From contig JAMPXO010000029.1 of NCBI GenBank assembly GCA_023701125.1, positions 1 to 46,700 of the forward strand: a stretch of 46,700 nucleotides of DNA, given 5' to 3'. The DNA comes from Vicinamibacteria bacterium. Lineage in GTDB: Bacteria > Acidobacteriota > Vicinamibacteria > Fen-336. Position 1 is the stretch's first letter, and each line of letters starts with the position of its first letter. Shown here one piece after another: positions 8,896 through 39,549 of the stretch. The notes under the pieces are model-generated. The model was given only the letters and a program-made list of their open reading frames with translations, did no database searches and was not told where the DNA came from. The translations under genes and the position numbers were made by a program.

Positions 8896-9999
8896 CTACC
8901 GCGGGTGGCCGTAGCGCGGGTCGTTCAGCTCCTGCACGCGGGAGACGTACTCCTCGTCGCTGACGTTGGTGCGCCACACGCCCGCGACCTTCGCCGCCAC
9001 CATCGTGCCGCCGAACAGCACCAGCAGCACCACTGCGAACGCCGCCGGGCGCAGCGCCCGGCGCCAGGGCGCGGGCGTCTCCACCCGCAGCGCGCGTGGC
9101 ACCGGACACGCCGCCACGCACGAGATGCAGCCGACGCACTCGTCGGAGCTCACGCGGGTCAGCTTCGCCACCGGCAGGTGGGAGGGGCACGCCTTGGTGC
9201 ACAGGTCACAGTCGATGCAGGACGCCGCGTCGCGGGTGACCTTGAGCGGCGAGAGCAGCGACAGGAAGCCGAGCAGCGCACCGTAGGGACACAGGTAGCG
9301 GCACCAGAAGTACGGGATGGCGATCGACAGCACGACCAGGCCGAAGATCACCTTCGCCGCGAACGGCGAGAGCTGCTCGAAGAAGTAGAGCATCTTGACG
9401 TCGGCGACGCGGTTGTAGGGCGAGTCGAGGAACATCGCGACGTCGGCGCCGGACATCCGCCAGAAGATCGCTGAGGCGAAGAACAGCAGCAGCAGGTACT
9501 TGAGGCTGCGCATCGGCAGGTCGAGTCCGCGCGGCAGCGCCAGCTTGCGACCGAAGGCGCGGCGCGACAGACCGGCCAGCCACTCGGAGGCGGTGCCGAC
9601 CGGGCACACCCACGAGCAGAACGCGCGCTTCATCAGCAGCCCGGTGGCCGCGACGGCGAGGAAGATCATGAAGCCCGCGGGACGCACGGGGCTGATCGCG
9701 CCGGTCTCCCACAGGTGGCGCAGGCTGAGCAGCGCGGACAGCGGCAGGAACGCCTCGACGCCTCCCGGCCGATCGATGGTGACCACGCCCGTCTCGACCT
9801 GGCGCACCCACCGCATGAATTGCGCACCGACGGCGATCGTGATCAATAGCCAGAACCACTGGCTGGCCCAGCGCAATCCCGTCACGAAGCGGCGCCGTTG
9901 CTTCAGGGCGGCCGCTTTCAGCGGCACGGCGAGGTCCTCGTCCGCGCCGGTCGCCCGCGCCCAGAGGCTGCGTGTGAATCGAAGCACCTGTTCACTCAT
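8896..9999 (-). CDS. NapH/CcoG-type membrane protein with two 4Fe-4S clusters
   Basis: 367 aa from ATG 9999; an in-frame ATG at 10014 is an alternative, and neither has a clear ribosome site. It has about five membrane helices: WLLITIAVGAQFMRW, FMIFLAVAATGLLM, YLLLLFFASAIFW, VIFGLVVLSIAIPYF and a C-terminal FAVVLLVLFGGTMVAA. Two CxxxCP loops (CSWVCPVG near residue 128 and CRYLCPYG near 245) are the hallmark of the NapH/CcoG family. They are followed by two ferredoxin motifs, CIDCDLCTKACP and CVGCISCVAACP. Proteins of this type pass electrons across or at the membrane, often from quinol to a periplasmic reductase, or help metal-centre assembly. No reductase partner is adjacent, so the role is open. 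Confidence 0.85.
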   Translation of the reverse strand: MSEQVLRFTRSLWARATGADEDLAVPLKAAALKQRRRFVTGLRWASQWFWLLITIAVGAQFMRWVRQVETGVVTIDRPGGVEAFLPLSALLSLRHLWETGAISPVRPAGFMIFLAVAATGLLMKRAFCSWVCPVGTASEWLAGLSRRAFGRKLALPRGLDLPMRSLKYLLLLFFASAIFWRMSGADVAMFLDSPYNRVADVKMLYFFEQLSPFAAKVIFGLVVLSIAIPYFWCRYLCPYGALLGFLSLLSPLKVTRDAASCIDCDLCTKACPSHLPVAKLTRVSSDECVGCISCVAACPVPRALRVETPAPWRRALRPAAFAVVLLVLFGGTMVAAKVAGVWRTNVSDEEYVSRVQELNDPRYGHPR

Positions 10000-10102
10000 G
10001 GTGTCCCGGGACATTGCGAGCCGCATGCCACCGATTGTTGTGGATGCGACAACGGCCGGCGGTGAGTGCGTCGCCCCTGGGGAAAGGCGAGACTTGGGCG
10101 CC

Positions 10103-12394
10103 ATGTCGAGGCTCTCTCCGCGTCGGCTGCTCGGCGTCGCCGCCGCGCTGGCCGCGGTCGCTGCGCTCGCCGTTCTCGTCGCGGGGCTGCTCGAGCGCGG
10201 TTCGCGGGCCGGATTGCGACTCACCGTGACGGACGCCGCGGGCGCGGTCGTGCTGGAGCGCGGGTGGCCCGACGCCGACCTGCGCGCGCTCGCGCCGCTG
10301 TTGCCGGAGCAGCGCCCGCTGCGGGCGCAACTCGTCGGGCTGTGGCACGCGGCGGAGCCGGCCCGGGTGCGGCTCTCGCTGCGCGCGGAGTCGGCGGCGC
10401 GCCTGGCGCTCGACGGCCGCGTCGTGTTGGAGCGCGAGGCGGATGCGAAAGCCGCCGGCCGCGAGGTCGAAGTGGACCTGCCCGGCGGCCCGCGCGCGCT
10501 GGAGCTGCACGCCGAGTTCGATGCCGCGGCGACCGCCGTGCGCCTGCGCGTCGCCCGCGGCGGCGAGGACTGGCGCGGGCTCGATCCCTTCGACCTCTAT
10601 CCCGAGGCGGTCGACATGATGGGCGCGGGGCGGCGTGGCGCGGCGCGCTGGCTGCGACGGGGCAGCGCCGTCGGCCTGGCCGTCGCGGCCGGCCTGGTCC
10701 TGCTGGCGGCGCTGCGCGCGCGCCGCGTGGACGGCGTGTGGCCTGGCTGGGCCGTGACGCGGGCGCTGCCGCTGGCGCTCTTCGTGCTGGCGGCGCTGCT
10801 GCGCCTGCAGGCGATGGTGGGCCGCCAGTGGCACGCGGACGCGCCGGCGTGGGCCCGCGAGGCGGCCGCTGCCGTTGGCGCGGCCCTGCCAGATGTGGCC
10901 GCCTTCGCCCCTGAGCCGCGGCCGTGGATCGGCGATCCGTACTCCTACCTGCTCGCCGCGCGCGAGCCCGAGCGCGGGTTCTACAGCGGCCACGTGCGCG
11001 AGCCGCTGTTCGTGTTCCTCGTGCGCCTGATGCTGTGGATCTGCGGCGGCCAGGACGCCGCGGTGCAGCTCGCTTCGCTGCTGGCCTCGGCGCTGATTCC
11101 CGTCGCCCTGCTGTTCCTCGGCCGCGTGCTGGGGTCGACCACCGCGGGCGCCCTCGCGGGCCTGCTCTTCGCGCTCGAGCGGCAGGCCATCGCGCTGTCG
11201 GTCGAAGGCTGGCGCGACGACCTCTTCACGCTGCTGGCGGTGGTGTTCGCGACCGCGGTCTTCCACGCCTGGCCCGGCGTGGGCCCGCGGCGCGGCGTCG
11301 GCCTCGGGTTCGTGGGCGGGCTGGCCGCGCTGACCCGCATCACGTCGTTGTCGTTCGTGGCGCCGGCGCTGCTTCTGCTCGCGCTGCGCCGGGAGACGCG
11401 GCGTGCGGCCGGCGTGGCGGCGGCGACGTGCGCGCTGCTGGTCGCGCCCTACCTGTTCAATTGCTGGCGTACGCTGGGCGACCCGCTGGTCTCGATCAAC
11501 TCGCACACCGGTTACTACCGCGGCGCCGTCGGGCTCGAGGGTTCGACGTCGGTGGGCCGCTATCTGGCCACGGCGCGGCCGCCGTGGGAGGCGCTCGACG
11601 TCGCGCTGTACGGCCTGATCGTCAACCCCTTCGAGCGCCAGTGGGGCGGCTTCGACTGGCTGCCGGTCGACCCGGGACCCGCGCTGGCGGGGCTCGCGGC
11701 GCTCGGCGCGCTGGCGCTGCTCGTGACCCCACGCGGCCGCGCGCTGATCGGGCTCGCGCTGTGCGCGGTGGCGCCCTTCGCGTTCACCTGGGACCTGCCC
11801 GGCGGCGGCGAGTGGCGCTTCACGCTCGTGGCCTACCCGTTCCTGCTGATCGCGGCGAGCCTCGCGCTCGTGCAGGGGGTCGCGTTGGTGAGAGGTGGAC
11901 GCGCGGCGATCCCCCCGGACTGGACGCCGCATCGGGCGCTGGGTGTCGCAGCCTCTGTGCTGGCGCTCGCGAGCGTGCTGCTGACGTTGCCGGCACTGCG
12001 CGCCAGCGAGGCCACGCGCCGCGCGCGGTTGCTGACGGTCCCCAGCGGCCCACGCGACCTTTCCTTCACGCTGGGTCGCGGCTGGCGATGGCCGCGCGCG
12101 CAGGGTGCCCTCCGCGTCCGCGACTGCGCAGGCGAGTGCTCGCTGCGGATTCCGCGAGCCGACCGTGCCCAGGTGCTGCGGCTGCGCGTGGGCCCGGCCG
12201 GCGCAGCGGAGGTGCTGATCGAGGCGCAACTCGATGGCGTCGCGCTCGGGGGCACCGTGCTGAAGCCCGATCCCGAACGCATGGGCGACTGGGAGCTGGA
12301 ACTGCCGCCGGCGCCCGCGCCGGGCTGGGCGACGCTGGAGTTGAAGGCGCAGGCCCCGATCGTGCTGTGGTACTGGTCGCTGCGGCCTGGCTAG
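10103..12394 (+). CDS. GT39-like polytopic membrane glycosyltransferase-type protein
   Basis: 763 aa from ATG 10103. It has an N-terminal membrane helix (LLGVAAALAAVAALAVLVAGLL) and an exported beta-sandwich (about 35-165, LRLTVTDAAGAVVLERG ...). About ten further helices follow (about 190-640), with ALLRLQAMVGRQWHADA, IGDPYSYLLAAREPERGFYSGHVREPLF, a DDLF segment after GWR, and a WDLPGGGEWRFTLVAYPF loop. A C-terminal exported beta domain (about 660-763) completes it. The helix pattern and the early acidic loop (IGDPYSY) fit dolichol- or undecaprenyl-phosphate-sugar dependent glycosyltransferases of the GT-C class (GT39/PMT type), but the donor and acceptor are unknown. Its stop overlaps that of the PduT gene through a shared CTAG. 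Confidence 0.72.
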   Translation: MSRLSPRRLLGVAAALAAVAALAVLVAGLLERGSRAGLRLTVTDAAGAVVLERGWPDADLRALAPLLPEQRPLRAQLVGLWHAAEPARVRLSLRAESAARLALDGRVVLEREADAKAAGREVEVDLPGGPRALELHAEFDAAATAVRLRVARGGEDWRGLDPFDLYPEAVDMMGAGRRGAARWLRRGSAVGLAVAAGLVLLAALRARRVDGVWPGWAVTRALPLALFVLAALLRLQAMVGRQWHADAPAWAREAAAAVGAALPDVAAFAPEPRPWIGDPYSYLLAAREPERGFYSGHVREPLFVFLVRLMLWICGGQDAAVQLASLLASALIPVALLFLGRVLGSTTAGALAGLLFALERQAIALSVEGWRDDLFTLLAVVFATAVFHAWPGVGPRRGVGLGFVGGLAALTRITSLSFVAPALLLLALRRETRRAAGVAAATCALLVAPYLFNCWRTLGDPLVSINSHTGYYRGAVGLEGSTSVGRYLATARPPWEALDVALYGLIVNPFERQWGGFDWLPVDPGPALAGLAALGALALLVTPRGRALIGLALCAVAPFAFTWDLPGGGEWRFTLVAYPFLLIAASLALVQGVALVRGGRAAIPPDWTPHRALGVAASVLALASVLLTLPALRASEATRRARLLTVPSGPRDLSFTLGRGWRWPRAQGALRVRDCAGECSLRIPRADRAQVLRLRVGPAGAAEVLIEAQLDGVALGGTVLKPDPERMGDWELELPPAPAPGWATLELKAQAPIVLWYWSLRPG

Positions 12395-12939
12395 ACCATC
12401 TCCCGGTAGAGCTCTGGCGACGGGCGTGGGATCACGACCGCGTTGACCAGCAGGCCGCGCTTGGCGATCACCGCGCGGCCCGCGGCGACCGCCGCCTGGA
12501 CCGCCGAGACGTCGCCGGTGACCGTGCAGAAGGCCTTGCCGCCCATCGCCATCGCCAGCCGCACCTCGAGCAGGCGCACCGCGGCGGCCTTGACCGCGGT
12601 GTCGGCGGCCTCGATCAGGGTCGCGACGTTGAACGACTCGAGGATGCCGAGCGCGCCTTCGAGCGGCGGCACCTCGCTGCGGCTGATCGCGCGGAACACG
12701 TCGGGGTGGATGTTGGGGATCACGAACTGGTCGATCAGGCTGCCCTGCGCGACCTCGGCGCCCGCGGCCACCGCGGCCTCGACCGCGGCCACGTCGCCGC
12801 CGATCAGCACCATGTACTTGCCCGAGCAGATGCTGCGCGCGAGCAGCAGCTCGATCGACGCGGCCTTGATCATCGCGTCGCCGGCCTCGAAGCCGGTGGC
12901 GATGGAGGTGACTTCGATCAGGCCGATGCTGTCTTTCAT
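12391..12939 (-). CDS. pduT: PduT-like tandem-BMC shell protein with Fe-S Cys
   Basis: 182 aa with two BMC domains, residues about 3-85 (SIGLIEVTSIATGFEAGDAM) and about 95-182 (GALGILESFNVATLIEAAD). The first carries ARSICSGKYMVLIGGD with Cys at residue 38, the position that binds the 4Fe-4S cluster at the pore of the trimeric PduT shell protein. PduT is thought to move electrons across a microcompartment shell. It overlaps pduS by ATGA (12936-12939), implying coupled translation, and ends at a CTAG shared with the convergent membrane protein. No other shell protein or microcompartment enzyme is present in this window, so its partners are either elsewhere in the genome or missing. Confidence 0.88.
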   Translation of the reverse strand: MKDSIGLIEVTSIATGFEAGDAMIKAASIELLLARSICSGKYMVLIGGDVAAVEAAVAAGAEVAQGSLIDQFVIPNIHPDVFRAISRSEVPPLEGALGILESFNVATLIEAADTAVKAAAVRLLEVRLAMAMGGKAFCTVTGDVSAVQAAVAAGRAVIAKRGLLVNAVVIPRPSPELYREMV

Positions 12940-14249
12940 GCCCTCACCAACACGATGACGTCGGTCACCGACTCGATCCTGCCCGCGACCGGCGCGTGCA
13001 GCAGCGCCCCCAGGGCGCCTGCGGGCGGCTCGCCCAGCAGTTCGCCCGCCTTGACCTTCTGGCCGGCCTTCACGGCGGGGACCACCGCGACGCCCGCCGA
13101 CTGCTTCAGCGGCAGCACCAGGCGGCTCGGCTCCTGTGGCAGCGGGCGCAACGGCGCCGGCTTGTCCCAGGCCGTGATGCCCAGCTTGCTGACCAGCCGC
13201 TCGATCGGCACGTGGCGCCCGTCGTGGAACGGGTGTGGCTTGGTCGGCGCCGGCCCCGTCCACTTGAAGCCGGTGGCCTTCAACTCCACCTTGGCGTCGT
13301 CGCAGGCCTCTTTCGGGTACAGGTCCTCGGGGCAGGCGTACAGGGTGCACAGCCCGCACGAGCAGCACAGCGACGCCCACGGGTTCCACTGCGCGGTGCC
13401 CTGCGACGTGAAGCCGAGGCCGCGCATCACCTGGTGCGGCTCGACCGCGTAGCCGAGCAGGAAGCGTGGGCAGAACTCGGTGCAGTAGCGGCACTGGTCG
13501 CATGCGGAGCGGCCGATCCGGGCCTGGGCTTCCTTCGGCCGCAGCTTGCGCTCGATCGTCTTGTGCTCGCGCGGCAGCACGATCGCACCGGCGTCGGTCT
13601 TGGTGATCGGCACGTCCAGCGACTCGCTCGTACGGCCCATCATCATGCCGCCGATCTGTAGCACCGGGTCGGCGCAGGTCGGGCCGCCGGCGGCTTCGAT
13701 CAACGCGCGGTAGGTGATGCCGAGCGGGACCTCGAAGGTCGAGGGCTGCGCGACGGCGCCCGCGATCGTCACCATCTTGCGCGTCACCGCGTGGCCCTTG
13801 GCGGCGGCCGCGACCTGGGCCAGCGTCTCGACGTTGCTGACGACGGCGCCCACCTGCAGCGGGATCCCCTGCGGCGGGATCAGCTTGCCGGTCACTTCGA
13901 ACACGAGGTCGTACTCGTCGCCGGCGGGGTAGTAGTCGCCGAGCAGGTGCACGCGCACGCGCGAGCCCTGGCAGGCCGCCTGCGCAGCCGCCACGACGGC
14001 CTTCTTCTTCTCCTTCACGCCGAGCACGCCCTCGCGCGCGCCCACCGCGTCCATCACCAGCTCCATCCCGCGCACGACGTCCTGCGCGTGGTGCTCGAGC
14101 ACGGCGGCGTCCTTGTGCAGCAGCGGCTCGCACTCGGCGCCGTTGCCGATCACGATCTCCGCTTTCGCGCCGAACTTGACGTGGGCGGGGAAGCCGCCGC
14201 CGCCGGCGCCGACGACGCCCGCCTTGCGTACGTGCTCGATCAGGGACAT
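12936..14249 (-). CDS. pduS: PduS-like (RnfC-related) NADH/flavin Fe-S oxidoreductase
   Basis: 437 aa, close to the usual PduS length of about 450. Residues 14-26 are the glycine-rich GAGGGGFPAHVKF that opens the RnfC/Nqo1-like flavin-NADH domain. An SLBB-like segment lies at about 158-210. Two 4Fe-4S motifs are clear: CDQCRYCTEFCP at 250-261 and CCSCGLCTLYACP at 295-307. A C-terminal barrel-sandwich (lipoyl-like) domain spans about 370-437. PduS reduces the corrin cofactor in propanediol microcompartments, and its partner PduT is encoded directly downstream. The start has no obvious ribosome site; it lies 12 bases after the preceding membrane-protein gene, so translation may depend on that gene. 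The upstream membrane and propeller genes suggest a role beyond a classical Pdu compartment. Confidence 0.88.
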   Translation of the reverse strand: MSLIEHVRKAGVVGAGGGGFPAHVKFGAKAEIVIGNGAECEPLLHKDAAVLEHHAQDVVRGMELVMDAVGAREGVLGVKEKKKAVVAAAQAACQGSRVRVHLLGDYYPAGDEYDLVFEVTGKLIPPQGIPLQVGAVVSNVETLAQVAAAAKGHAVTRKMVTIAGAVAQPSTFEVPLGITYRALIEAAGGPTCADPVLQIGGMMMGRTSESLDVPITKTDAGAIVLPREHKTIERKLRPKEAQARIGRSACDQCRYCTEFCPRFLLGYAVEPHQVMRGLGFTSQGTAQWNPWASLCCSCGLCTLYACPEDLYPKEACDDAKVELKATGFKWTGPAPTKPHPFHDGRHVPIERLVSKLGITAWDKPAPLRPLPQEPSRLVLPLKQSAGVAVVPAVKAGQKVKAGELLGEPPAGALGALLHAPVAGRIESVTDVIVLVRA

Positions 14250-14261
14250 GGAGTGAGTACT

Positions 14262-15425
14262 TTACAACCCCAGTTGCTCGCGGAGTGAGGGATTCTCCGG
14301 GCGCAGGCGCCAGATCCACGCGTCGAGCGCGTAGTGGGTCGCCTGCGGCAGCGCCAGCAGCGGCACCAGCAGCGACAGCGCCTCGCCGCCGGGGAACAGG
14401 TCGGGACCGGGAAACAGCATCGGGTTGTCGTGCCAGACGAGGCGGTCCCAGAACCACTCCTCCGCGAACGCGACCGCCACCAGCGGCGCCATGTACAGCA
14501 GCACGCGCCCGGGGCGGAACAACGCCGCGACGGCGGGGGTTTGGGGGCGCAGGAGCTCCGTTTGCGACGTAGCCCCCAAAGGACCGGCGGCGGGTTCATC
14601 CCGGCGCCGGAACCCGACGATCTCGGCCGCGAAGCGGCGACGGCCCCAGTGGTGGACGTAGGCGAGGTACGGGATGCCGTGGATGAAGACGTTGGTGGCG
14701 GTGAACGCGTAGTCCGAGTCGAAGAAGGCGATGCCGCCGTGCCAGCAGGCCCAGGTCGTCGCCCAGACCAGCAGCTTGCCGGCCGAGGGCCGCAGGCCTC
14801 GCGCGGCGCGCCAGATCTGACGCGCGACGAACGCGGCGGCGATCGCCAGGTTGGGGACCCACAGGGCGTCGGCCACCCCGCGCGGCAGGCCGGGAAAGAA
14901 ATCGCCTTGCAGGAACCACGCGAACGAGCGCGGCAGGTGGGCATGCCAGTAGAGCAACGGCCACAGCGTCGCCGTGTAGATCGCGGTCGCGTCGAGCCAG
15001 CCGTCGAGTTCGGTCAGGCCCGTCTCGCGGCGCCGATACAGGTTGACCCAGCCGTACTGCTGGCGCACGAAGTGCCAGACCGCGAGGTAGGCGAGGGCGC
15101 GCCAGAAAACGCCGGGACCCGCGCTGTGGAGCAGCACGCCGAGCACCCAGGCGGCGAGCGGGATGCCGAGGTAGAGCCCGGGCCGCCGGCCGCGCTCCGC
15201 GGGATCGAGGTACACGCGATACGCGGTCGACCACACGTGGGCGACGTCGACGAACACGACGCCCGCGAAGAACAGCCACGGCGGCGCGTCGCCCGCGAGC
15301 GCGCCGGTGGCCTGGCCGAGCGCAAGCAACCCGAGCGCCAGCGCCGCGGAGCCGCCGAAGGTGAAGAGGTCCCAGCGCGCGGAGACGAGCCACGGACTGG
15401 CGGCCGCCTCCGCGTGCCCGGTCAC
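14262..15425 (-). CDS. Polytopic membrane protein carrying an in-frame repeat insertion
   Basis: 387 aa from GTG 15425, three bases after the propeller gene. About eight or nine helices are visible, for example WLFFAGVVFVDVAHVWSTAYRVYLD, PLAAWVLGVLL, LAYLAVWHFVRQQYGWVNLY and NVFIHGIPYLAYVHHWG. Histidines within helices (DVAHVWS, WHFVRQQYGW, YVHHWG, QATHYALDAWIW) could bind heme or metal, but I recognise no named family. Residues about 275-300 (RRRDEPAAGPLGATSQTELL) derive from a dispersed repeat element (copy at 14535-14614) that sits in the loop between two helices and keeps the frame. The gene belongs to an operon propeller - membrane protein - pduS - pduT (gaps 3, 12, -4), so it may be the membrane partner of the PduS electron path. 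That is an inference from position. Confidence 0.7.
   Translation of the reverse strand: MTGHAEAAASPWLVSARWDLFTFGGSAALALGLLALGQATGALAGDAPPWLFFAGVVFVDVAHVWSTAYRVYLDPAERGRRPGLYLGIPLAAWVLGVLLHSAGPGVFWRALAYLAVWHFVRQQYGWVNLYRRRETGLTELDGWLDATAIYTATLWPLLYWHAHLPRSFAWFLQGDFFPGLPRGVADALWVPNLAIAAAFVARQIWRAARGLRPSAGKLLVWATTWACWHGGIAFFDSDYAFTATNVFIHGIPYLAYVHHWGRRRFAAEIVGFRRRDEPAAGPLGATSQTELLRPQTPAVAALFRPGRVLLYMAPLVAVAFAEEWFWDRLVWHDNPMLFPGPDLFPGGEALSLLVPLLALPQATHYALDAWIWRLRPENPSLREQLGL
14535..14614 (-). repeat. In-frame palindromic repeat element, copy A
   Basis: Same family as the copies at 25112, 39004 and 39087. It begins with a G-rich run, has GGAG(C/T)TCCGTTTGCGACGTAG, and ends with a hairpin: an 11-base arm at 14584-14594, loop TTCAT, arm at 14600-14610, one mismatch. 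It lies within the membrane-protein gene and is read in the GATSQTELLRPQTP frame. Confidence 0.8.
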
Positions 15426-15428
15426 GAG

Positions 15429-16712
15429 CTACTTCTCCGCGATGCGATAGAGGTGCTTCGCGCCGCGCAGGAACAGGTCGCCCTCGGCGATCGCGGGGGA
15501 GGCGTCGAAGCCGTCGTCGAGGCGATTGAGTGCCAGCACTTCGAACGCGGCGCCGGCCTTGAGGACAGCGGTGGCGCCGTCGCGGCCGGCGACGTAGACC
15601 CGGCCGTCGGCCGCCACGGGCGAGGCGTAGACGTTGGGCACGCCCTCGAGGCGCTGGGTGAAGCTCGCCGTCCCGGTCGCCGCGTCGAGGCGGGTCAGGA
15701 TCCCGGAGTTGGACTTCAGGAAATAGAGCCCGCCCTGGTAGAGCAGCGGCGAGGGCACGTAGGGCGTGTCCTGGTCGTAGCTCCAGGCGATCGTGGGCGG
15801 GCCCGTGATCGCGCCCTTCGCGGCCGAGAGCTGGATCGCGCGCAGCGCGTTGCCGCGGAAGCCGCTCATCACGTACAGCCAGTCGCCCGCGGACACCGGC
15901 GTGGGGATCACGTTGGCGGTCAGTCCAGGCGCTTCCCAGACGAGAGCGCCGGTGTCGAGCGCGTAGGCGACCACCTTGTGCGTGCCGGGGACCACGACCT
16001 GGGCCTTGCCGCCGACCGTGACCACCAGCGGCGTCACCCACGACGTCGGCTCGTCGCGCCGCTGGCGCCACTTCTCCTGGCCCGTGGCCGCGTCGAAGGC
16101 GGCCACGAAATCGTCGCCCTCGTGGTCCCAGTTGACGACCAGCGTGCCGGCGTGGAGCGCGGGCGAGGCGCCTTCGCCGAACGCCATGCGCGTGCGCATC
16201 TGGCCCAGTTGCTTCTCCCACAGCACCTTGCCAGTGAGGTCGAGGGCGTAGAGCCCGCGCGAGCCGAAGAACGCGTACACGCGCTGGCCGTCGGTCAACG
16301 CCGAGCCGCCGGCGAAGCTGCCGTCCTTGTGGGTGCCCTCGTGCGGCGTCTCGCGGCGCACGACCTGGCTCCAGCGCGTCGCCCCGTCCTTGCGCGCGAG
16401 CGACAACACCGTGAACTCCAGCTCCGCCCCCGCGGGCACGGCCGAGGTCAGGTACAGCGCGTCGCCCCACACGATCGGGGTGCTCTTGCCGCTGCCGGGC
16501 AGTGCGACCTTGAAGCGGACGTTCCGCGTCTCGCTCCACGTCGTCGGCGGCTTGGCCCCGGGCGCCTCGCCCGTGAACACGGGCCCGCGCCATTGCGGCC
16601 AGAAGCCGGGCCCGGCGGCCTTCACGTCGGCGCCCGACCCGAGCGCGATCGCGGCCAACGCCCCGGCCGCGAGCAGACCCCCGCTCACCGGCAACACTCG
16701 TCCCCTGACCAT
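15429..16712 (-). CDS. Exported PQQ-type beta-propeller protein
   Basis: 427 aa from ATG 16712, chosen because GGAGGGGAC lies just upstream; longer starts lack this. The N-terminus is a signal peptide (VSGGLLAAGALAAIALGSGADVKAA). The rest is an outer-membrane-assembly or quinoprotein-like propeller: WPQWRGPVFTGEAPGAKPP is the usual opening strand. Repeats such as LYALDLTGKVLWEKQLG, AAFDAATGQEKWRQRRDEP, VVAYALDTGALVWEAPGL and LTRLDAATGTASFTQRLEG follow. I see no clear cofactor-binding residues that would make it an active quinoprotein dehydrogenase, so it may be a structural or binding propeller. It is the first gene of the operon that ends in pduS-pduT, and is divergent from 16766 with only 53 bases between. 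Confidence 0.8.
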   Translation of the reverse strand: MVRGRVLPVSGGLLAAGALAAIALGSGADVKAAGPGFWPQWRGPVFTGEAPGAKPPTTWSETRNVRFKVALPGSGKSTPIVWGDALYLTSAVPAGAELEFTVLSLARKDGATRWSQVVRRETPHEGTHKDGSFAGGSALTDGQRVYAFFGSRGLYALDLTGKVLWEKQLGQMRTRMAFGEGASPALHAGTLVVNWDHEGDDFVAAFDAATGQEKWRQRRDEPTSWVTPLVVTVGGKAQVVVPGTHKVVAYALDTGALVWEAPGLTANVIPTPVSAGDWLYVMSGFRGNALRAIQLSAAKGAITGPPTIAWSYDQDTPYVPSPLLYQGGLYFLKSNSGILTRLDAATGTASFTQRLEGVPNVYASPVAADGRVYVAGRDGATAVLKAGAAFEVLALNRLDDGFDASPAIAEGDLFLRGAKHLYRIAEK

Positions 16713-16765
16713 GTCCCCTCCGACCCGCTCCCGCGGCAAGCGTACCAGCACCACGACGCCTCGCT

Positions 16766-20094: not shown

Positions 20095-21606
20095 TCAGTT
20101 CCAGCGCCGCCATTCGTCCTCGTAGTAGCGGACCAGGACCTGGTTGTTCAGCTTGTTGACCTCGGCCGGCAGCGGCCCCATGTCGGGGCCGAGCACGAAC
20201 AGCGCGCGCAGCGACGGACCGTCCAGCGAGCGCAGCGCCGGCAGCGCGGGCTCGGCCGGCGGCTCGAAGGGCGAGACGCCGCCCAGCGCGAAGCCCCACT
20301 CGCCGAACGAGGGCACCAGCGCGTGATAGGGCCGGACGAAGAACCCCGCCGCTTCCATCGTGCGGTTGATGCACCAGAAGCTGCGCCGCGCCAGCAGCGG
20401 CGACGTGCTCTGCACCGACGCCAGGCCGGTGGCCGGGTCCAGCCGGCGCCGCAGCAGCGAGTAGAAGTGACTCGTGTACAGCTTGCCGAGCGAGTGGTTG
20501 TGGGGGTCGGGGAAGTCGACGAAGGCGAGGTCGAAGAGCGAACGCTCGCGCGGAAGCTGCAGCCAGATCAGCGCGTCTTCGTTGACCACGCGCAGCCGTG
20601 GGTCGGACATCGCGCCGGCGTTCAGCTCGCGCAGCATCACGTTGTCCTTCGCCAGCCGCGTCATCTCCGGGTCGAGGTCGACCATCACGACCTCGCGCAC
20701 CGAGGCGTGCTTCAGCACCTCGCGCGCCGCCAGGCCGTCGCCGCCGCCGAGGATCAGCACCCGCGCCGCGTCAGGGCGGACCGCGAACGCCGGGTGGACC
20801 AGCGCCTCGTGGTAGCGGTACTCGTCGGCCGAGCTGAACTGGAGCTGGCCGTTGAGGAAGAGCTGGAAGTGGTGGCCGGTGCGCGTCATCACGATCCGCT
20901 GGTAGCGGGTCGACTTGGTGAACACCACCGGGTCGGCGTACAGCCCTTCTTCGGCCATTTCGGTCAGCCGGTCGGAGTAGGCGAACGCGGTGGCCAGCAC
21001 CGCGCAGGCGACGGCGCCCTGCGCGCGCAGCAGCCCGGGCGCGCCGAGCAGCGGCCGGAACAGCCAGGTGGACCACAGGCCGACGCCGGCGTTGATCAGG
21101 CCGAGCAGCACGCTGGTGCGGACGAGGCCCAGCTCGGGCACCAGCACCAGCGGGAAGAGCAGCGAGGCGAACAGCGCGCCGAGGTAGTCGAAGGCCAGCA
21201 CCCGCGCGACCAGGTCCTTGAACTCGACGACGTCCTTCAGCAGCCGCAGCACGAGCGGGATCTCGAGCCCGACCAGGGTGCCGATCACGAGCACCAGGCT
21301 GTAGAGCACGAGGCGGAACAGGTCGGGCGCCGCGCCGAAGGCGAGGAACAGCGCCGGCGCCGACAGGCCGCCGATCACGGCCACCGCGAACTCGATCTGG
21401 ACGAAGCGGGAAGCGATCCCGCGCTGCAGATACCCCGACAGCCACGAGCCGATGCCCATCGCGGAGAGGTAGGCGCCGATCACCGTCGAGAACTGGGTGA
21501 CCGAGTCACCCAGCACGTAGCTCGCGAGGGTGCCGGCCACGAGTTCGTAGACGAGCCCGCAGGTGGCGATCGCGAGGACGGTCAGGTAGACGGCGGGGGA
21601 GCGCAA
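20095..21606 (-). CDS. speE: Membrane-anchored spermidine synthase (polyamine aminopropyltransferase)
   Basis: 503 aa from TTG 21606; no ATG exists between the preceding stop and the first helix. Residues 1-215 form about six or seven membrane helices (YLTVLAIATCGLVYELVAGTLASYVLG, then FVQIEFAVAVIGGLSAPALF and so on). Residues about 230-490 form the soluble SpeE domain: YQRIVMTRTGHHFQLFLNGQLQFS, then GGGDGLAAREVLKH for S-adenosyl binding, VMVDLDPEM with the ribose-binding acid, and LAFVDFPDPHN with the catalytic Asp. It transfers aminopropyl groups from decarboxylated AdoMet to a polyamine. SpeD, which makes that donor, is encoded five genes upstream in the same run. Confidence 0.88.
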   Translation of the reverse strand: MRSPAVYLTVLAIATCGLVYELVAGTLASYVLGDSVTQFSTVIGAYLSAMGIGSWLSGYLQRGIASRFVQIEFAVAVIGGLSAPALFLAFGAAPDLFRLVLYSLVLVIGTLVGLEIPLVLRLLKDVVEFKDLVARVLAFDYLGALFASLLFPLVLVPELGLVRTSVLLGLINAGVGLWSTWLFRPLLGAPGLLRAQGAVACAVLATAFAYSDRLTEMAEEGLYADPVVFTKSTRYQRIVMTRTGHHFQLFLNGQLQFSSADEYRYHEALVHPAFAVRPDAARVLILGGGDGLAAREVLKHASVREVVMVDLDPEMTRLAKDNVMLRELNAGAMSDPRLRVVNEDALIWLQLPRERSLFDLAFVDFPDPHNHSLGKLYTSHFYSLLRRRLDPATGLASVQSTSPLLARRSFWCINRTMEAAGFFVRPYHALVPSFGEWGFALGGVSPFEPPAEPALPALRSLDGPSLRALFVLGPDMGPLPAEVNKLNNQVLVRYYEDEWRRWN

Positions 21607-21648
21607 GGGGAGGGCCGGGCCCGGGGCCGGGCGCGAGATGAGGTCGCG

Positions 21649-21873
21649 CTAGCCGCGGATCGCGGAGGAGATGATGAACGACAGGCCGAGGATGAACGCG
21701 GCCAGGATCACCGCGAAGGCCGTGTTGTGGTCCTCCTCGATCTCCTTCTTCGCCGAGAACGGCAGGATCCTGACGATCGCCCAGAAGGACGTGCCCAGGA
21801 TCACGCACCCGAGCAACGAGTAGACGATCGAGTCCACGATCGGCCGGGCGTGGCTGGCGATCCACTCTTCCAT
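21649..21873 (-). CDS. DUF350-like small membrane protein
   Basis: 74 aa. I chose ATG 21873 (GGAGG six bases upstream; GTG 21876 is an alternative). Its start overlaps the previous gene's stop as TGATG. Two hydrophobic helices are visible (IVDSIVYSLLGCVILGTSFWAIV and AFAVILAAFILGLSFIISSAI), separated by a charged loop SAKKEIEEDHNT. Known DUF350 proteins usually have about 130 residues and two such hairpins; this is half-length, a single hairpin, so it likely works as a dimer or oligomer. DUF350 genes are known to cluster with DUF4178 and spermidine synthase genes in bacterial membrane-stress systems, which is exactly the context here. Confidence 0.78.
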   Translation of the reverse strand: MEEWIASHARPIVDSIVYSLLGCVILGTSFWAIVRILPFSAKKEIEEDHNTAFAVILAAFILGLSFIISSAIRG

Positions 21874-22040
21874 CACTTGCCTCCTCTCCAGTAGGTGAAC
21901 GAGCGATAACCGCCCGGCGCCTGGCGGATGTTCTGCGGGATGCGGTCCTTCTCGGCGGCGAACAGCTCCCAGCCCCGCCAGCCGGCGGTGCCGTAACCCC
22001 CGAGCACCAGCAGCGCGAACAGCGCGTAGCGTTTCTTCAT
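21873..22040 (-). CDS. 55-aa membrane protein
   Basis: Starts at ATG 22040, overlapping the DUF4178 gene's stop (ATGA), and ends in TGATG with the DUF350 gene. One N-terminal helix (ALFALLVLGGYGTAGWRGWELF) is followed by a basic, aromatic tail (PGGYRSFTYWRGGK). I recognise the GGYRSFTYW ending as typical of tiny proteins found beside DUF350/DUF4178 genes, but it has no assigned function. Although short, it is well supported by the overlaps at both ends. Confidence 0.7.
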   Translation of the reverse strand: MKKRYALFALLVLGGYGTAGWRGWELFAAEKDRIPQNIRQAPGGYRSFTYWRGGK

Positions 22041-23998
22041 TCGTCGTCCTCGTCGTCGTCGCCCGAGTCGGCGTGGTCGCTCTCCGACCAGCGCAGCGTC
22101 TCGTGGCCCGTGCGCGACATCAGCAGCAGCAGCGGCCGCAGCATCAGCGCCAGGAACGCGAGCAGCAAGTGGTAGAAGCGGGGCGAGCCGCGCACGATCT
22201 CCACCGTCGCCGCGGCGACGGGCGGGTTCGGCCCGTCCCACGACGGGGCCAGCCGCAGCGTGTAGCGGCCTGCCGGCACCGAGCCCAGGTGGGCCGCGCC
22301 GCTCTGCGAGCCCTCGTTCCACGCGCCGTCGCTGTCGGTGCCGTGGTAGTACGCGTTCTCGATCCCGAACGCCTGCACGTCGCCCGTCTCCTCGTCGATC
22401 AGGGCGGAGTCGAAGAAGACCCAGGCGTTGCTGACGGGCGCGTTGATCTCGACCTTGAGGTTGCCGCTGCCCTTGACGTCGAACGGGCCGATGAAGACGG
22501 CGCTGTCCGGGTCCTCGGCGACCAGGCTGCCGGCGGCCGGCCGCGCCCGCAGCGTGATCTTCTCGGTCAGCACCGTCGAGCTGCGGAAGGCGAAGAACAG
22601 CCACAGCACCAGCAACACGCCGGCCGCCAGCATGAACGTGGAGAACACGGTCGGCGCGTCCTGGGCGTGCTTCCAGGGCTGGACCGGCCCCACGCCCTGC
22701 GGCAGCGGCAACGCCAGCTCGGGCTGTCCGAACGCCGCGCGGACCGCGTCCGGCTCGATGTGCACGCCGAGGCTCCAGGTGACTTCCTTGCCGTCCTTCT
22801 CGCGCGACAACATGCGCGGCGGCGCGATCCAGTCGTCCGCGCGCACCTCGTCGCCCTGCGCCACCGCCCAGTAGAACTCGCCGAGCACGTGGTCGACCTT
22901 CGCGTCGCCGCCCTGGAAGTGCTTGAAGCCGTCGCCCTTCAGGTAGGCCATGCCGCCGGCCAGGATCGAGCTGCCCTCGGCCTGCACGTCGCCGCCCGAC
23001 AGCGGCGTCACGTACACCCAGTGGCCCTTGCTCTCGACCAGCCAGCGGAAGCCGCGGCCCTCGCCGTAGAGCAGCAGCTCCTGCCACGGGTAGCGGGTGC
23101 CGTCGACCGTGACGCTGCGGATCATGGCGCCGATCACGGTCCACTCGTGGCCCTCGAACGTGCCCTTGCTGCCGAGCGCGACGTGCGGCTGGAACGGCGG
23201 CTTCTGCAGCTTCTTGAGGATCTGCAGGTCGTTGTTGGGGTCGAGCAGCGAGCCGCACCACGGGCAGGCGATGCGCTGCGTCTCCGCGCCGCCGCGCAGC
23301 TCGAGCGGGCCGCCGCACTGCGGGCAGGCCAGCGCCTTGCCCGCGGCCTTCGCGCGGCGCTCCTCGCGGTCGGGCAGGCCGCGGAAGCCGAGTTCGTCGA
23401 ACTGCACCTCGCGCCCGACGTAGAGCGCCTCGGCTTCCTCGCCCTGGCCGTAGTCGAGGGTGGCGAAGGCGCCGCCGGGCCCGACCAGGTCGGCGAAGTG
23501 CAGCTCGGCACCGATCGGGGCCGAGAACGGCAGCTCGCCCGCGGCCGCGGCGAAACGCGCGGCGCGCACCTCGGAAACGCGGAACACCCCGGCGGGCCCG
23601 AGGTCGACGACCTGGTCGGGCGCGATCGCCGAGAACGAGGGCACCGGCGGCAGCGCGGCCGCGGCCATGTAGTGGTAGCGGCCCTGGGCCTCGGACAGCC
23701 ACGCCCACGACTCGCCCGGAAACGCCATCAGCCACTCGTCCCAGGTGCCGGCGCCGTGGTCGAGCTGGAGACGTCCGACCAGCTCGAAGGCGGGCGCGCC
23801 CTCGTAGCCGCCGCGCACGCCGAGGGCGAGCAGCGAGGGCGTGGGGATCAGGCCGGCGACCTTGCCGTAGTCGGCGAGGTCGGCGCCCGCGCGCGCCACG
23901 GCCGAGCCGCAGTGGTCGCAGACCTTGAGCAGCGAGGTGCCGAGCGCGAAGACCACCGGCGCGCCGCAGGACGGGCAGCGTCCCTCGTAGCCGCTCAT
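22037..23998 (-). CDS. DUF4178-like double zinc-ribbon membrane protein
   Basis: 653 aa from ATG 23998. Two zinc ribbons are visible: C8/C11 with C27/C30 (CPSC ... CDHC) and C225/C228 with C245/C248 (CPQC ... CPWC). Each precedes a DUF4178-type beta-rich domain: residues about 50-200 (FELVGRLQLDHGAGTWDEW) and about 270-425 (EGHEWTVIGAMIRSVTVDGTRYPWQELLLYG). A membrane helix at about 452-472 (FSTFMLAAGVLLVLWLFFAF), a probable exported beta domain and a second helix near 615-635 follow. The C-terminus is acidic (DSGDDDEDDE). DUF4178 proteins with zinc ribbons are known partners of DUF350 and polyamine enzymes in membrane-stress gene clusters. It overlaps the 55-aa gene downstream by four bases and follows speD after four bases. 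Confidence 0.83.
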   Translation of the reverse strand: MSGYEGRCPSCGAPVVFALGTSLLKVCDHCGSAVARAGADLADYGKVAGLIPTPSLLALGVRGGYEGAPAFELVGRLQLDHGAGTWDEWLMAFPGESWAWLSEAQGRYHYMAAAALPPVPSFSAIAPDQVVDLGPAGVFRVSEVRAARFAAAAGELPFSAPIGAELHFADLVGPGGAFATLDYGQGEEAEALYVGREVQFDELGFRGLPDREERRAKAAGKALACPQCGGPLELRGGAETQRIACPWCGSLLDPNNDLQILKKLQKPPFQPHVALGSKGTFEGHEWTVIGAMIRSVTVDGTRYPWQELLLYGEGRGFRWLVESKGHWVYVTPLSGGDVQAEGSSILAGGMAYLKGDGFKHFQGGDAKVDHVLGEFYWAVAQGDEVRADDWIAPPRMLSREKDGKEVTWSLGVHIEPDAVRAAFGQPELALPLPQGVGPVQPWKHAQDAPTVFSTFMLAAGVLLVLWLFFAFRSSTVLTEKITLRARPAAGSLVAEDPDSAVFIGPFDVKGSGNLKVEINAPVSNAWVFFDSALIDEETGDVQAFGIENAYYHGTDSDGAWNEGSQSGAAHLGSVPAGRYTLRLAPSWDGPNPPVAAATVEIVRGSPRFYHLLLAFLALMLRPLLLLMSRTGHETLRWSESDHADSGDDDEDDE

Positions 23999-24002
23999 CG
24001 CC

Positions 24003-24353
24003 CTAGCGCTCCCCGCGCTCCACGAGCCGGACGCGCACCTGCTGGGCGCCCATCGCCGCCGTCAGCCGGTCGGCCCACGGCCACTCCTTCAGCTCGCGGC
24101 ACGAGTACAGGTTGAAGGCGGCGAACGAGCGCTCGGGGAAGGTGTGGCAGGCGAGGTGCGACTCGGTCAGCAGCACCAGGCCGGTGATGCCGGCTTCGCC
24201 GGGGAAGACGTGCCACAGCGGCTCGCCTGCGGTCTTCAGCCCCAGCTCGCGGATCACCCGCGCGAAGAAGTTCTGCAGCTCGGGCAGCGAGCGCAGCGAG
24301 GCCGGGTCGCAGCCGTGGGCGTCGACGATCCACTCCGTGCCGAGGCTGACCAT
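24003..24353 (-). CDS. speD: S-adenosylmethionine decarboxylase proenzyme
   Basis: 116 aa, the size of small bacterial (class 1B) SpeD proteins. The self-processing site is clear: LLTESHLACHTFPE, where the Ser of ESH becomes the pyruvoyl group and the following His helps catalysis. The downstream FNLYSCRE supplies the conserved Cys. The product, decarboxylated AdoMet, is the aminopropyl donor for SpeE. The start ATG 24353 overlaps the ubiX stop as TGATG, and the stop is four bases before the DUF4178 gene. Confidence 0.92.
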   Translation of the reverse strand: MVSLGTEWIVDAHGCDPASLRSLPELQNFFARVIRELGLKTAGEPLWHVFPGEAGITGLVLLTESHLACHTFPERSFAAFNLYSCRELKEWPWADRLTAAMGAQQVRVRLVERGER

Positions 24354-24937
24354 CAGATCCGGGTACCCGCCCGGCCGGACCACTCGGGCACGATCGACTG
24401 CTCGAGGCCGAGCCGGTCGAGGACGCGAGCGACGGTGTGGTCCACGAGCTCGAGCACGGTCTGGGGGCGGTTGTAGAAGGCGGGCATGGGCGGCAAGAGG
24501 ATAGCGCCCATCTCGGCGAGTGCGAGCAACTGCTTCAGGTGGCCGACGTGGAGCGGGGTCTCCCGGAACATCACGATCAGCGGCCGGCCCTCCTTCAGCG
24601 TGACGTCGCCCGCGCGGGCGATCAGGTTGTCGGAGTGGCAGGACGCCAGCGCCGACATCGTCTTCACGCTGCACGGGGCGACCACCATGCCGAGGGTCCG
24701 GAACGAGCCGGAGGCGACCGACGCGCCGATGTCGCGGTTGTCGTGGACGACGTCGGCGAGCGCCTCGACCTGTTGTGGCGTGTAGTCGGTCTCTTCGACC
24801 AGGGTGCGCTTCGCCGGCGTCGACAGCACGAGGTGGACCTCGAGATCGCCGCGCGCGCGCAGTTGCTCGAGCAGGCGCACGCCGTAGATCGCGCCGGTCG
24901 AGCCCGACATGCCGACGACGACCCGGCGCCGGCTCAT
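24353..24937 (-). CDS. ubiX: UbiX-family flavin prenyltransferase
   Basis: 194 aa. Hallmarks: GMSGSTGAIYGVRLLEQL near the N-terminus (FMN binding), STPAKRTLVEE, APCSVKTMSALASCHSDNLIARA, KEGRPLIVMFRETPLH, and PPMPAFYNRP near the end. UbiX prenylates FMN to give the cofactor of UbiD-type decarboxylases. No UbiD gene is in the window. ATG 24937 overlaps the previous gene's stop (ATGA). Its placement between a flavin split-barrel gene and speD, with overlaps at both ends, is notable because flavin chemistry and polyamine enzymes are otherwise unrelated. Confidence 0.92.
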   Translation of the reverse strand: MSRRRVVVGMSGSTGAIYGVRLLEQLRARGDLEVHLVLSTPAKRTLVEETDYTPQQVEALADVVHDNRDIGASVASGSFRTLGMVVAPCSVKTMSALASCHSDNLIARAGDVTLKEGRPLIVMFRETPLHVGHLKQLLALAEMGAILLPPMPAFYNRPQTVLELVDHTVARVLDRLGLEQSIVPEWSGRAGTRI

Positions 24938-25494
24938 TCCTGCCTCGCCAGCGCCCGCCGCGCGGCCGCGGCCCGCTCCGCGTAGGCCGCCTGGTTCTCG
25001 ACCGCGAAGCGCAGGCCGGCCTGGAGGAAGGCCCCCATTTCGCCGGAGTGCGGCTCGTCGGCCAGCACGTCGATCACCTCGGCCTCGAAGCAGGCGAAAC
25101 CGGAGCCCGGCGGGGGGGCGGGGGCAGAGGAGCGTCCGTTCGCGACGGAGCCCCCGAGGGCCCGAGCGTCCGGCTCCGCCGGGCGCGAGCCGCCCGAAAA
25201 CGCGTCGCGCACCCGCAGCTTCACGTAATGCACGCCCTCGGGCTCCACCAGCGCCAGCGAGGCGACGCCCGGTTCGCGCAGGTTGGCAGCCGTGCGGCTG
25301 TTGGGCTGCACGGCCAGCCGCAGCGCCCGCGGGTGCAGCGCCAGCACCTCGGCGTCGGCGAGCAGCGCCGGGTGGGGCAGGCCCGCGGCGTCGACCGTCA
25401 CGATCACCACCACGCGGCCGGGCGGCGGTGTGGTGTCGGGCGAGAAGCGCGTGAGCAGCACCTCCGGGAGGACGGAGCCGAGCGAGCGGGCCAT
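24934..25494 (-). CDS. PNPOx-like flavin split-barrel protein with in-frame repeat insertion
   Basis: 186 aa from ATG 25494, nine bases after the ECF sigma gene. The beta-rich core (GRVVVIVTVDAAGLPHPALL, LRLAVQPNSRTAANLREPG, ASLALVEPEGVHYVKLRV, ACFEAEVIDVLAD) fits the pyridoxamine-phosphate-oxidase type split-barrel that binds FMN or a related flavin. Between VRDAF and FACFEAEV sits an insertion of about 35 residues (ALGGSVANGRSSAPAPPPG) that matches a dispersed repeat element (25112-25190). Joining the flanks gives the strand pattern expected of the family. The reaction is unknown. Downstream it overlaps ubiX by four bases. Confidence 0.72.
   Translation of the reverse strand: MARSLGSVLPEVLLTRFSPDTTPPPGRVVVIVTVDAAGLPHPALLADAEVLALHPRALRLAVQPNSRTAANLREPGVASLALVEPEGVHYVKLRVRDAFSGGSRPAEPDARALGGSVANGRSSAPAPPPGSGFACFEAEVIDVLADEPHSGEMGAFLQAGLRFAVENQAAYAERAAAARRALARQE
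25112..25190 (-). repeat. In-frame palindromic repeat element, copy C
   Basis: Shares GAGGAGCGTCCGTT, GCGACG and AGCCCCC with copies A, B1 and B2, then a hairpin CGTCCGGC (25167-25174), loop TCC, GCCGGGCG (25178-25185). It is more diverged. It is read in a different frame (GGSVANGRSSAPAPP) from copies A and B. Confidence 0.68.
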
Positions 25495-38085: not shown

Positions 38086-39549
38086 CTAGGTCCTGGGGAC
38101 GGGGCCCACGGGAGACGGGTCAGGACCGCTCGAGGCCGCGAGGCGGAGCGTGCGCAGGCCGGCGACGCCGGCCACCGCGACGAGCATCCCGAGCGGCACG
38201 GCGATCGCGGCCAGCGGGGTGCCCGTGCGCGCCGCGGCCAGCCACCACACGAGCGGGAGGTACGTGCCGTCGCCCGCCGGGAAGTAGTGGGCCTCGCTGG
38301 CCCAGAAGCCGAGCATCCCCCACGCCAGCGCGGCGACCAGCAGCAGCAGGGCGGCGACGAGGCCGGGCCGCAGGCGCTCCCAGCCGAACGCGAGTGCCGG
38401 CAACGCCGCCAGCCACACGACCGCCAGCCGCCGCCCGGGCTCCTGGCCGGTCGGCTGCGAGAGCACCGCGAAAAGGCCGACGTGCAGGACGAGCAGCAAC
38501 GCGGGCAGCGCCAGCGCGCGCCGCCTGGCGCCGACACCGCAGGCCACCAGCGGCAGCAGCACGATCGGCGCGAGGCGGATGCTCTCCGTGAGGTAGTAGA
38601 CCGCGGCGCCCACCGGGTCGCGGCCGAGGTACTGGCGGCCGCCCGCCGCGCCGCCATAGCCGCCGGCCAGTGCCTGCCCGTGGCTGGCCGCGTTCCAGGC
38701 CAGGAGCGCAGCGAAAGAGACGACCAGCGCGGGTAGCGCGTTTCGCGGCGCGAACCAGCGGTCCGCCGAGCCCTCGACGAGGCTCGCGCAGGCGAGCGCC
38801 GCGGCGAGCACCACGCCGGTCGGGTGCACCCACGGCAGCGCCGCGCAGGCGAGTGCCAGGCCGAGCTTGTTGCGGCGCTCGTGGGCGAACAGGCCGGCCG
38901 CGAAAGCGGCGCCCAGCACGGGCTCGGAACCCGCGTGGCGAGCGACCTGCCAGACGGGCCAGGCCGTCCCGACGAGCGCGATGGCGGCGGCGACGCCCGC
39001 GACGGGGGTTTGGGGGCGGAGGAGTTCCGTTTGCGACGTAGCCCCCATGGGACCGGCGCCGGGTTCACCCCGGCGTCGGAACCGACGGGGGCTTGGGGGC
39101 GGAGGAGCGTCCGTTTGCGACGTAGCCCCCATGGGACCGGCACCCGGCTTCGCCGGGTGTCGGAACCCGACTGTGCCCCCACGCAGGAGCGCGACGCGGG
39201 CGAGCAGGGCCAGCGCCAGCAGCACCCAGGCATGGCCGGCCGCTGCCGCCAGCGGGCCGAAGTCGGTGGGCAGGGCGAGGCCGAGCGCGGCATCCGCGGC
39301 CACGAACGGGAGGTAGGCGACCGCGGTCCCGGGGTACAGCCGCGAGCGCGACTCGTGGTCCGTGCGCACCGGCCAGTAAGGCAGCTCCGGGATCGACTCG
39401 CCCGGCCCGCCGAGCACGACGGTGCCCCGGGTCAACAACCGTCGCGCCTGCGTCAACTGTTCGGCGTGATCGCTCGCCACCCAGGTGCCCGCGGTCGTGG
39501 CGGCGTGCAGGGCCGCGACCAGGAGCAGGGGAGCCCACGGCAGGCGCAT
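38086..39549 (-). CDS. Polytopic membrane protein carrying two tandem repeat copies
   Basis: 487 aa from ATG 39549 (GTG 39582 is alternative). The first helix (LPWAPLLLVAALHAATTAGTWVASDH) and SRSRLYPGTAVAYLPFV suggest a GT-C-like or Wzy-like membrane enzyme; about nine helices follow. Residues about 120-180 consist of two tandem repeat-derived units (GAGPMGATSQTDA ... GAGPMGATSQTELLRPQTP), placed between helices. Without them the helix spacing would be normal. The reaction is unknown; nothing nearby clarifies it. Located upstream of the M20 gene by 12 bases. Confidence 0.68.
   Translation of the reverse strand: MRLPWAPLLLVAALHAATTAGTWVASDHAEQLTQARRLLTRGTVVLGGPGESIPELPYWPVRTDHESRSRLYPGTAVAYLPFVAADAALGLALPTDFGPLAAAAGHAWVLLALALLARVALLRGGTVGFRHPAKPGAGPMGATSQTDAPPPPSPRRFRRRGEPGAGPMGATSQTELLRPQTPVAGVAAAIALVGTAWPVWQVARHAGSEPVLGAAFAAGLFAHERRNKLGLALACAALPWVHPTGVVLAAALACASLVEGSADRWFAPRNALPALVVSFAALLAWNAASHGQALAGGYGGAAGGRQYLGRDPVGAAVYYLTESIRLAPIVLLPLVACGVGARRRALALPALLLVLHVGLFAVLSQPTGQEPGRRLAVVWLAALPALAFGWERLRPGLVAALLLLVAALAWGMLGFWASEAHYFPAGDGTYLPLVWWLAAARTGTPLAAIAVPLGMLVAVAGVAGLRTLRLAASSGPDPSPVGPVPRT
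39004..39083 (-). repeat. In-frame palindromic repeat element, copy B1
   Basis: Tandem with B2; units are 84 bases apart (28 codons). Hairpin arms 39053-39063 and 39069-39079, loop TTCAC, one G:T-type mismatch. Read in the same frame as copy A. Confidence 0.82.
39087..39168 (-). repeat. In-frame palindromic repeat element, copy B2
   Basis: Hairpin arms 39137-39148 and 39152-39163, loop TTC, 12 bases with one mismatch. Arm sequence differs from B1 (CACCCGG versus CGCCGGG) but base pairing is preserved, the mark of a selected hairpin. Confidence 0.83.

Follow-up and report, generated by a model that had tools for sequence, protein, structure and literature searches.

A PduS-PduT gene pair as a probable satellite of an ACI-like microcompartment in a Vicinamibacteria genome

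Genes of the PduS-PduT locus

The stretch of DNA analysed here (the window) is the whole of contig C158, 46,700 bases in length, from a draft Vicinamibacteria genome of 5.4 Mb in 254 contigs that is about 95% complete. Four closely spaced genes on the minus strand are transcribed in the order propeller, membrane protein, PduS, PduT. The features of this region are listed below.

8896-10014, minus strand: NapH/NosR-like membrane polyferredoxin
10103-12394, plus strand: PMT_2-type membrane glycosyltransferase, on the strand opposite to pduT
12391-12939, minus strand: pduT-like BMC-T shell protein of 182 amino acids (two PF00936 domains, PDB relatives, alignment, genome scan)
12936-14249, minus strand: pduS-like NADH/FMN/2x[4Fe-4S] oxidoreductase of 437 amino acids (Pfam, cysteine-motif alignment, RnfC/NuoF structural relatives)
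14250-14261, minus strand: 12-base junction between the membrane-protein gene and pduS, with TA(A/G)AGTA just 5' of the pduS ATG
14262-15425, minus strand: helical membrane protein (MEM), no known family match
15429 to about 16697-16754, minus strand: BamB/PQQ_2-like beta-propeller (PROP) with a possible signal peptide, starting at 16697 or 16754

The propeller and membrane-protein genes are separated by 3 bases, the membrane-protein gene and pduS by 12 bases, and the pduS stop and pduT start share four bases (ATGA). Two BMC domains were found in PduT by Pfam search (PF00936, E 1.7e-47), and the closest solved structures in the PDB were trimers of the PduT type, 3nwg (2e-54), 3pac and 3n79. 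The NCBIfam eut_PduT model matched over its full length with 126 bits, a score that does not reach the 250-bit cut-off of the curated equivalog. The pore cysteine Cys38 is kept in the alignment within the motif RSIC38SGKY. By sequence, the protein is a tandem-BMC, PduT-like shell protein in which the Cys38 ligand for a putative pore [4Fe-4S] cluster is present.

The PduS product contains, in order, Complex1_51K, SLBB, Fer4_17 and RnfC_N domains (Pfam), the identical four-domain set published for PduS (PMC6325248), and its structural relatives are RnfC and NuoF. Both tetra-cysteine 4Fe-4S motifs, CDQCRYCTEFCP and CCSCGLCTLYACP, are kept and are invariant in the six aligned homologues. The glycine-rich flavin-domain motif GAGGGGFP is also kept; the NADH oxidation, FMN binding and corrin reduction that define PduS are putative for this protein. 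The best PduS matches were from the MAGs Acidobacteria bacterium ACD2 (94%) and Vicinamibacteria bacterium SSF20 (87%). A sequence-only reading of the window had described a PduS-PduT pair with Cys38 and both 4Fe-4S motifs, in an operon with a propeller and a membrane gene and with no other shell or B12 enzyme gene in the window. The Pfam searches and alignments bore out this description, and a profile scan found no further BMC-domain or BMC-P gene on contig C158. No RNA families or tRNAs were found within the window.

The predicted structure of the membrane protein had a pLDDT of 53, too low for a fold search. Its gene carries a copy (14507-14621) of a GC-rich dispersed repeat of about 88 bases that also occurs at 39000-39171 and 25108-25186. 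The copy is in frame and accounts for about 26 extra residues absent from the orthologues in G002 (a sister genome of the same genus) and G007, and in this is akin to the in-frame palindromic elements of Rickettsia. Dozens of copies of the repeat occur in G000, G001 and G002, and other relatives gave no matches.

Shell genes elsewhere in the genome

A scan of the genome revealed exactly three BMC domains, namely the two in PduT, which is the sole BMC-T gene, and one in a BMC-H gene on contig C55; PduS occurs in one full-length copy. On C55 a class II aldolase gene is followed by the BMC-H gene, and three BMC-P genes come directly after. A microcompartment-type aldehyde dehydrogenase (AldDH) stands alone on contig C148. 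Its orthologues directly adjoin BMC-H genes in many relatives, and it has the C-terminal tail common to the orthologues examined (xFVxExDVxxAxxxxxxxxxxxxxxxTPxAR). These features resemble the ACI type, the acidobacterial microcompartment in which AldDH is consistently found on a satellite (Sutter et al. 2021, PMC8217296): a BMC-P triplet, at least one BMC-H, a class II aldolase, a satellite AldDH and an acidobacterial host. Two ACI features are absent. About 20 kb of C55, in which a subset of the genes was scanned, showed no hydroxyacid dehydrogenase, and the class II aldolase of the window genus (g1) was judged by eye to lack the C-terminal helical extension (EP) carried by G005 and G007. Because of these two absences the compartment is called ACI-like here rather than ACI. 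It differs from its ACI relatives also in having a Cys38 PduT with PduS, not a cysteine-free BMC-T.

Signature enzymes of other compartment types were searched for as well. The glycyl-radical enzyme that marks GRM compartments was not found in the genome, in searches whose controls gave matches. As for PDU compartments, PduL was not found, and the diol dehydratase large subunit had no match in the genome, in a search whose control likewise matched nowhere. No B12 or radical enzyme was recognised in the C55 shell locus; the genome-wide search for B12 enzymes covered the diol dehydratase large subunit.

A satellite BMC locus is one with too few shell genes of its own in a genome whose main shell locus lies elsewhere (PMC4207490, PMC8217296), and the PduS-PduT pair, with the shell locus on C55, has this arrangement. 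Since the genome has no BMC-T gene besides PduT, the pair is very probably a satellite of the genome's own compartment. The sequence-only reading had suggested a search of the genome for other shell genes, and that search uncovered the BMC-H and three BMC-P genes of C55. Its notion of a new role for an orphan pair is not supported in view of these shell genes, and the pair is regarded as a microcompartment electron-transfer module in a genome where neither a B12 nor a glycyl-radical enzyme was recognised. The outcome that was to have overturned that reading, a full Pdu locus elsewhere with this pair as a simple duplicate, was found in part: a shell locus does exist elsewhere, but it is ACI-like and not Pdu, and the pair is single copy. 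With PduS and BMC-T each in one copy and no PduL, duplication of a Pdu locus was rejected. The original observation was thus sound and has a more ordinary explanation, a known electron-transfer pair placed as a satellite locus, in an unusual host compartment.

Other genes associated with the compartment were also observed. The shell locus on C55 ends with a gene (L007:15149-15502) for a small protein that is conserved in G001, G002, G005 and G007. Its N-terminus resembles an encapsulation peptide, its tail has a conserved C-x7-C-x5-C pattern with histidines close by, and the protein is possibly a metal-binding cargo. The genes immediately past the shell locus (L007:15700-18107) encode a tetrahaem-like cytochrome, an NrfD membrane subunit and a multi-cluster ferredoxin whose start is twin-arginine-like; they are absent from this position in G001 and G002. 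The C-terminal tail of the satellite AldDH (L167:8080-9693) resembles, by eye, an extension at the N-terminus of the G006 and G008 class II aldolases (L037:10787-11857 and L039:3861-5087). Both tail and extension end in TPxARD, and perhaps they represent a common targeting domain.

The pair and its neighbours in other genomes

In three genomes of the same family (G006, G008 and G013), the PduS-PduT pair adjoins a complete compartment locus that includes acetate kinase, PduL, a BMC-H triplet, BMC-P, AldDH and aldolase, and at four further loci (L059, L076, L087 and L095) it lies beside or near compartment genes. The wider comparison covered the best 80 PduS loci from GTDB genomes, in which PduT follows PduS in nearly all callable cases and other shell genes are present in many. 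The PduS and PduT proteins nearest to those of the window outside the Acidobacteria, at about 60-73%, come from verrucomicrobial satellites (L060-L072) and the locus-linked Opitutaceae L059. In most Verrucomicrobia the pair stands alone, a two-gene satellite as in the window. Of such genomes tested, all but G065 have BMC-H elsewhere and no second BMC-T; in G065 (2.7 Mb of sequence), PduT was present and no other shell gene matched. The verrucomicrobial genomes mostly have three BMC-H genes elsewhere (probably of PVM type, assigned from host phylum), whereas in the window genome BMC-H is single and the main locus differs. Domains, tandem gene order and cluster ligands are identical to those of Pdu and GRM PduS-PduT, and GRM microcompartments likewise have no B12 enzyme (PMC6325248, PMC2982820, PMC4207490). 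Unlike those pairs, the window pair is detached from its shell locus, and the only shell is ACI-like, with neither a radical nor a B12 signature enzyme recognised.

Cys38 was present in all PduS-adjacent PduTs of the fetched loci (73/73). A class-wide survey of 193 genomes yielded ten BMC-T genes with Cys38, and PduS adjoins all nine that could be assessed, the tenth (G016) lying 46 bases from a contig end. Conversely, none of the 11 BMC-Ts without the cysteine has PduS within 1.5 kb on each side, the flanks of two (L186 and L188) being short; their pores are IVPRGK- or GTISRGR-like. The association between Cys38 and PduS had a Fisher p of 6e-6, with genes treated as independent despite their relatedness. 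This strict linkage offers a simple sequence rule with which to predict cluster-bearing BMC-T tiles. Five genomes of the window family with ACI-like genes (G004, G005, G010, G011 and G012) have a BMC-T that lacks the cysteine and has no PduS beside it. In G001, a genus-mate whose genome is only about 85% complete, no BMC-T was detected. A weak BMC match on contig C37 of G007 was dropped, as the frame gave no convincing protein.

The sequence-only reading had placed all four genes in one operon and proposed electron transfer between the membrane or periplasm and a shell-like body. Tight same-strand spacing in the window genome favours such a functional operon, and in G002 the propeller-membrane pair still lies within about 5.5 kb of PduS; there, however, a Ser/Thr kinase gene and a GGDEF gene, both unrelated, separate the membrane protein from PduS. 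G014, which belongs to another family of the same order, has PduS-PduT without the propeller and membrane genes. A scan found no copy of the membrane protein in G014 or in G016, where the contig begins just before PduT. In G007 the membrane protein closes a cluster made up of SpeD, DUF4178, DUF350, SpeE and FAD-protein genes, and no PduT was detected. A cluster of the same genes precedes the membrane protein in the window too, and on this gene context the membrane protein is assigned to that upstream cluster, not to PduS-PduT. Conservation of the propeller next to PduS-PduT does not extend beyond the genus, and the propeller-membrane pair did not occur beside PduS in any of about 75 other neighbourhoods drawn from the best 80 loci. 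Pfam and NCBIfam searches found no redox motif in either protein. On this comparative gene context a functional operon joining a shell-bound PduS-PduT to membrane or periplasm was rejected as most improbable. The operon holds as spacing in the window genome only, and the genes for the propeller and membrane protein are probably neighbours unrelated to the pair. The earlier proposal survives in that the pair is seen as a microcompartment module for electron transfer; a link to the membrane or periplasm is not supported, the extra genes not being conserved neighbours. The TA(A/G)AGTA sequence before the pduS ATG is common to G000, G002 and G014 despite different upstream genes, and could be a promoter of PduS-PduT itself and the boundary of the module.

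Two further neighbours were noted. The cluster of SpeE-like aminopropyltransferase, DUF350, DUF4178 and S-adenosylmethionine decarboxylase genes occupies 20095-24383 of the window and is also present in G002 and G007. The NapH-like polyferredoxin is a candidate electron acceptor. Its gene lies directly downstream of pduT in G002, with no PMT_2 glycosyltransferase between, and is not conserved beside PduT outside that genome.

Origin and proposed function of the pair

In a quick tree built from 79 PduS proteins, those of the window, G002 and G014 formed one group, sister to Akkermansiaceae (98), inside a 17-row clade (100) whose other members are Verrucomicrobia, an unplaced MAG and a Polyangiaceae MAG. 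The PduS proteins of G006, G008 and G013 clustered with other Acidobacteria. Between the window genome and G014, identity is 87-88% for PduS and PduT, against 59% for AldDH and 56-70% for the BMC-Ps; the value for BMC-H, 83%, is less discriminating. Because the window PduS nests within a verrucomicrobial clade, the pair was probably gained horizontally from a relative of Verrucomicrobia or a verrucomicrobial-type compartment. The simplest account, and a fairly likely one, is that the acquired pair replaced the family's cysteine-free BMC-T; a possible alternative is that the pair is ancestral and was then lost in relatives. Contamination of the assembly was judged unlikely, as the pair also occurs in G002, with mostly the same genes around it.

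In Pdu compartments the NADH:FMN chemistry of PduS, its binding to PduT and the PduT pore cluster have been published (reviewed in PMC6325248; also PMC2982820), and a role in export was proposed earlier for B12-free compartments (PMC4207490, PMC8667426). By analogy, the PduT trimer would form a shell tile holding a [4Fe-4S] cluster by three Cys38 residues in its central pore, with PduS docked on the lumenal face. The FMN of PduS would oxidise lumenal NADH that the enclosed aldehyde dehydrogenase would produce, and single electrons would pass through the two [4Fe-4S] clusters of PduS to the PduT cluster and on to a cytosolic acceptor, so that NAD+ would be regenerated inside the C55-encoded shell. 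We lean towards this role as an electron exit from the compartment, with which the potential of +99 mV published for the PduT cluster (PMC6325248) is compatible, though short of proof. As PduL was not found, CoA recycling is unaccounted for in the proposed compartment.

The opposite direction of flow deserves consideration, since the canonical task of PduS is to reduce cobalamin for diol dehydratase and a role in the activation of glycyl-radical enzymes has been proposed (PMC6325248). Import of electrons to the lumen, or support of a radical or cobalamin enzyme there, nevertheless appears unlikely, given a genome without a detectable glycyl-radical enzyme and a shell locus without B12 or radical enzymes among those searched for; the missing diol dehydratase match weighs little, its control having failed. 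The horizontal placement of PduS, together with the BMC-T-free result for the incomplete genus-mate genome G001, might instead point to a decaying or neutral acquisition outside the ACI-like shell. This we consider very unlikely, as both genes are intact and 87-94% conserved over two families with all cluster ligands kept, and as the genome has no BMC-T other than PduT. The preferred reading taken as a whole, in which PduS-PduT is a horizontally gained satellite of an ACI-like metabolosome that serves as its electron exit, with the propeller and membrane genes as neighbours only, is considered likely.

More tentatively, a compartment type with a cysteine-free BMC-T may have been retrofitted by means of one horizontally moved cassette, an electron-conducting tile plus an NADH oxidase, and the gene order PduS-PduT-NapH of G002 may couple the exit to the membrane polyferredoxin and respiration. 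This pair bears on what PduS and PduT do in compartments that lack B12 chemistry. Within the acidobacterial order, ACI-like compartments with the pair and those with a cysteine-free BMC-T and no PduS provide a natural comparison for the idea of an electron exit.
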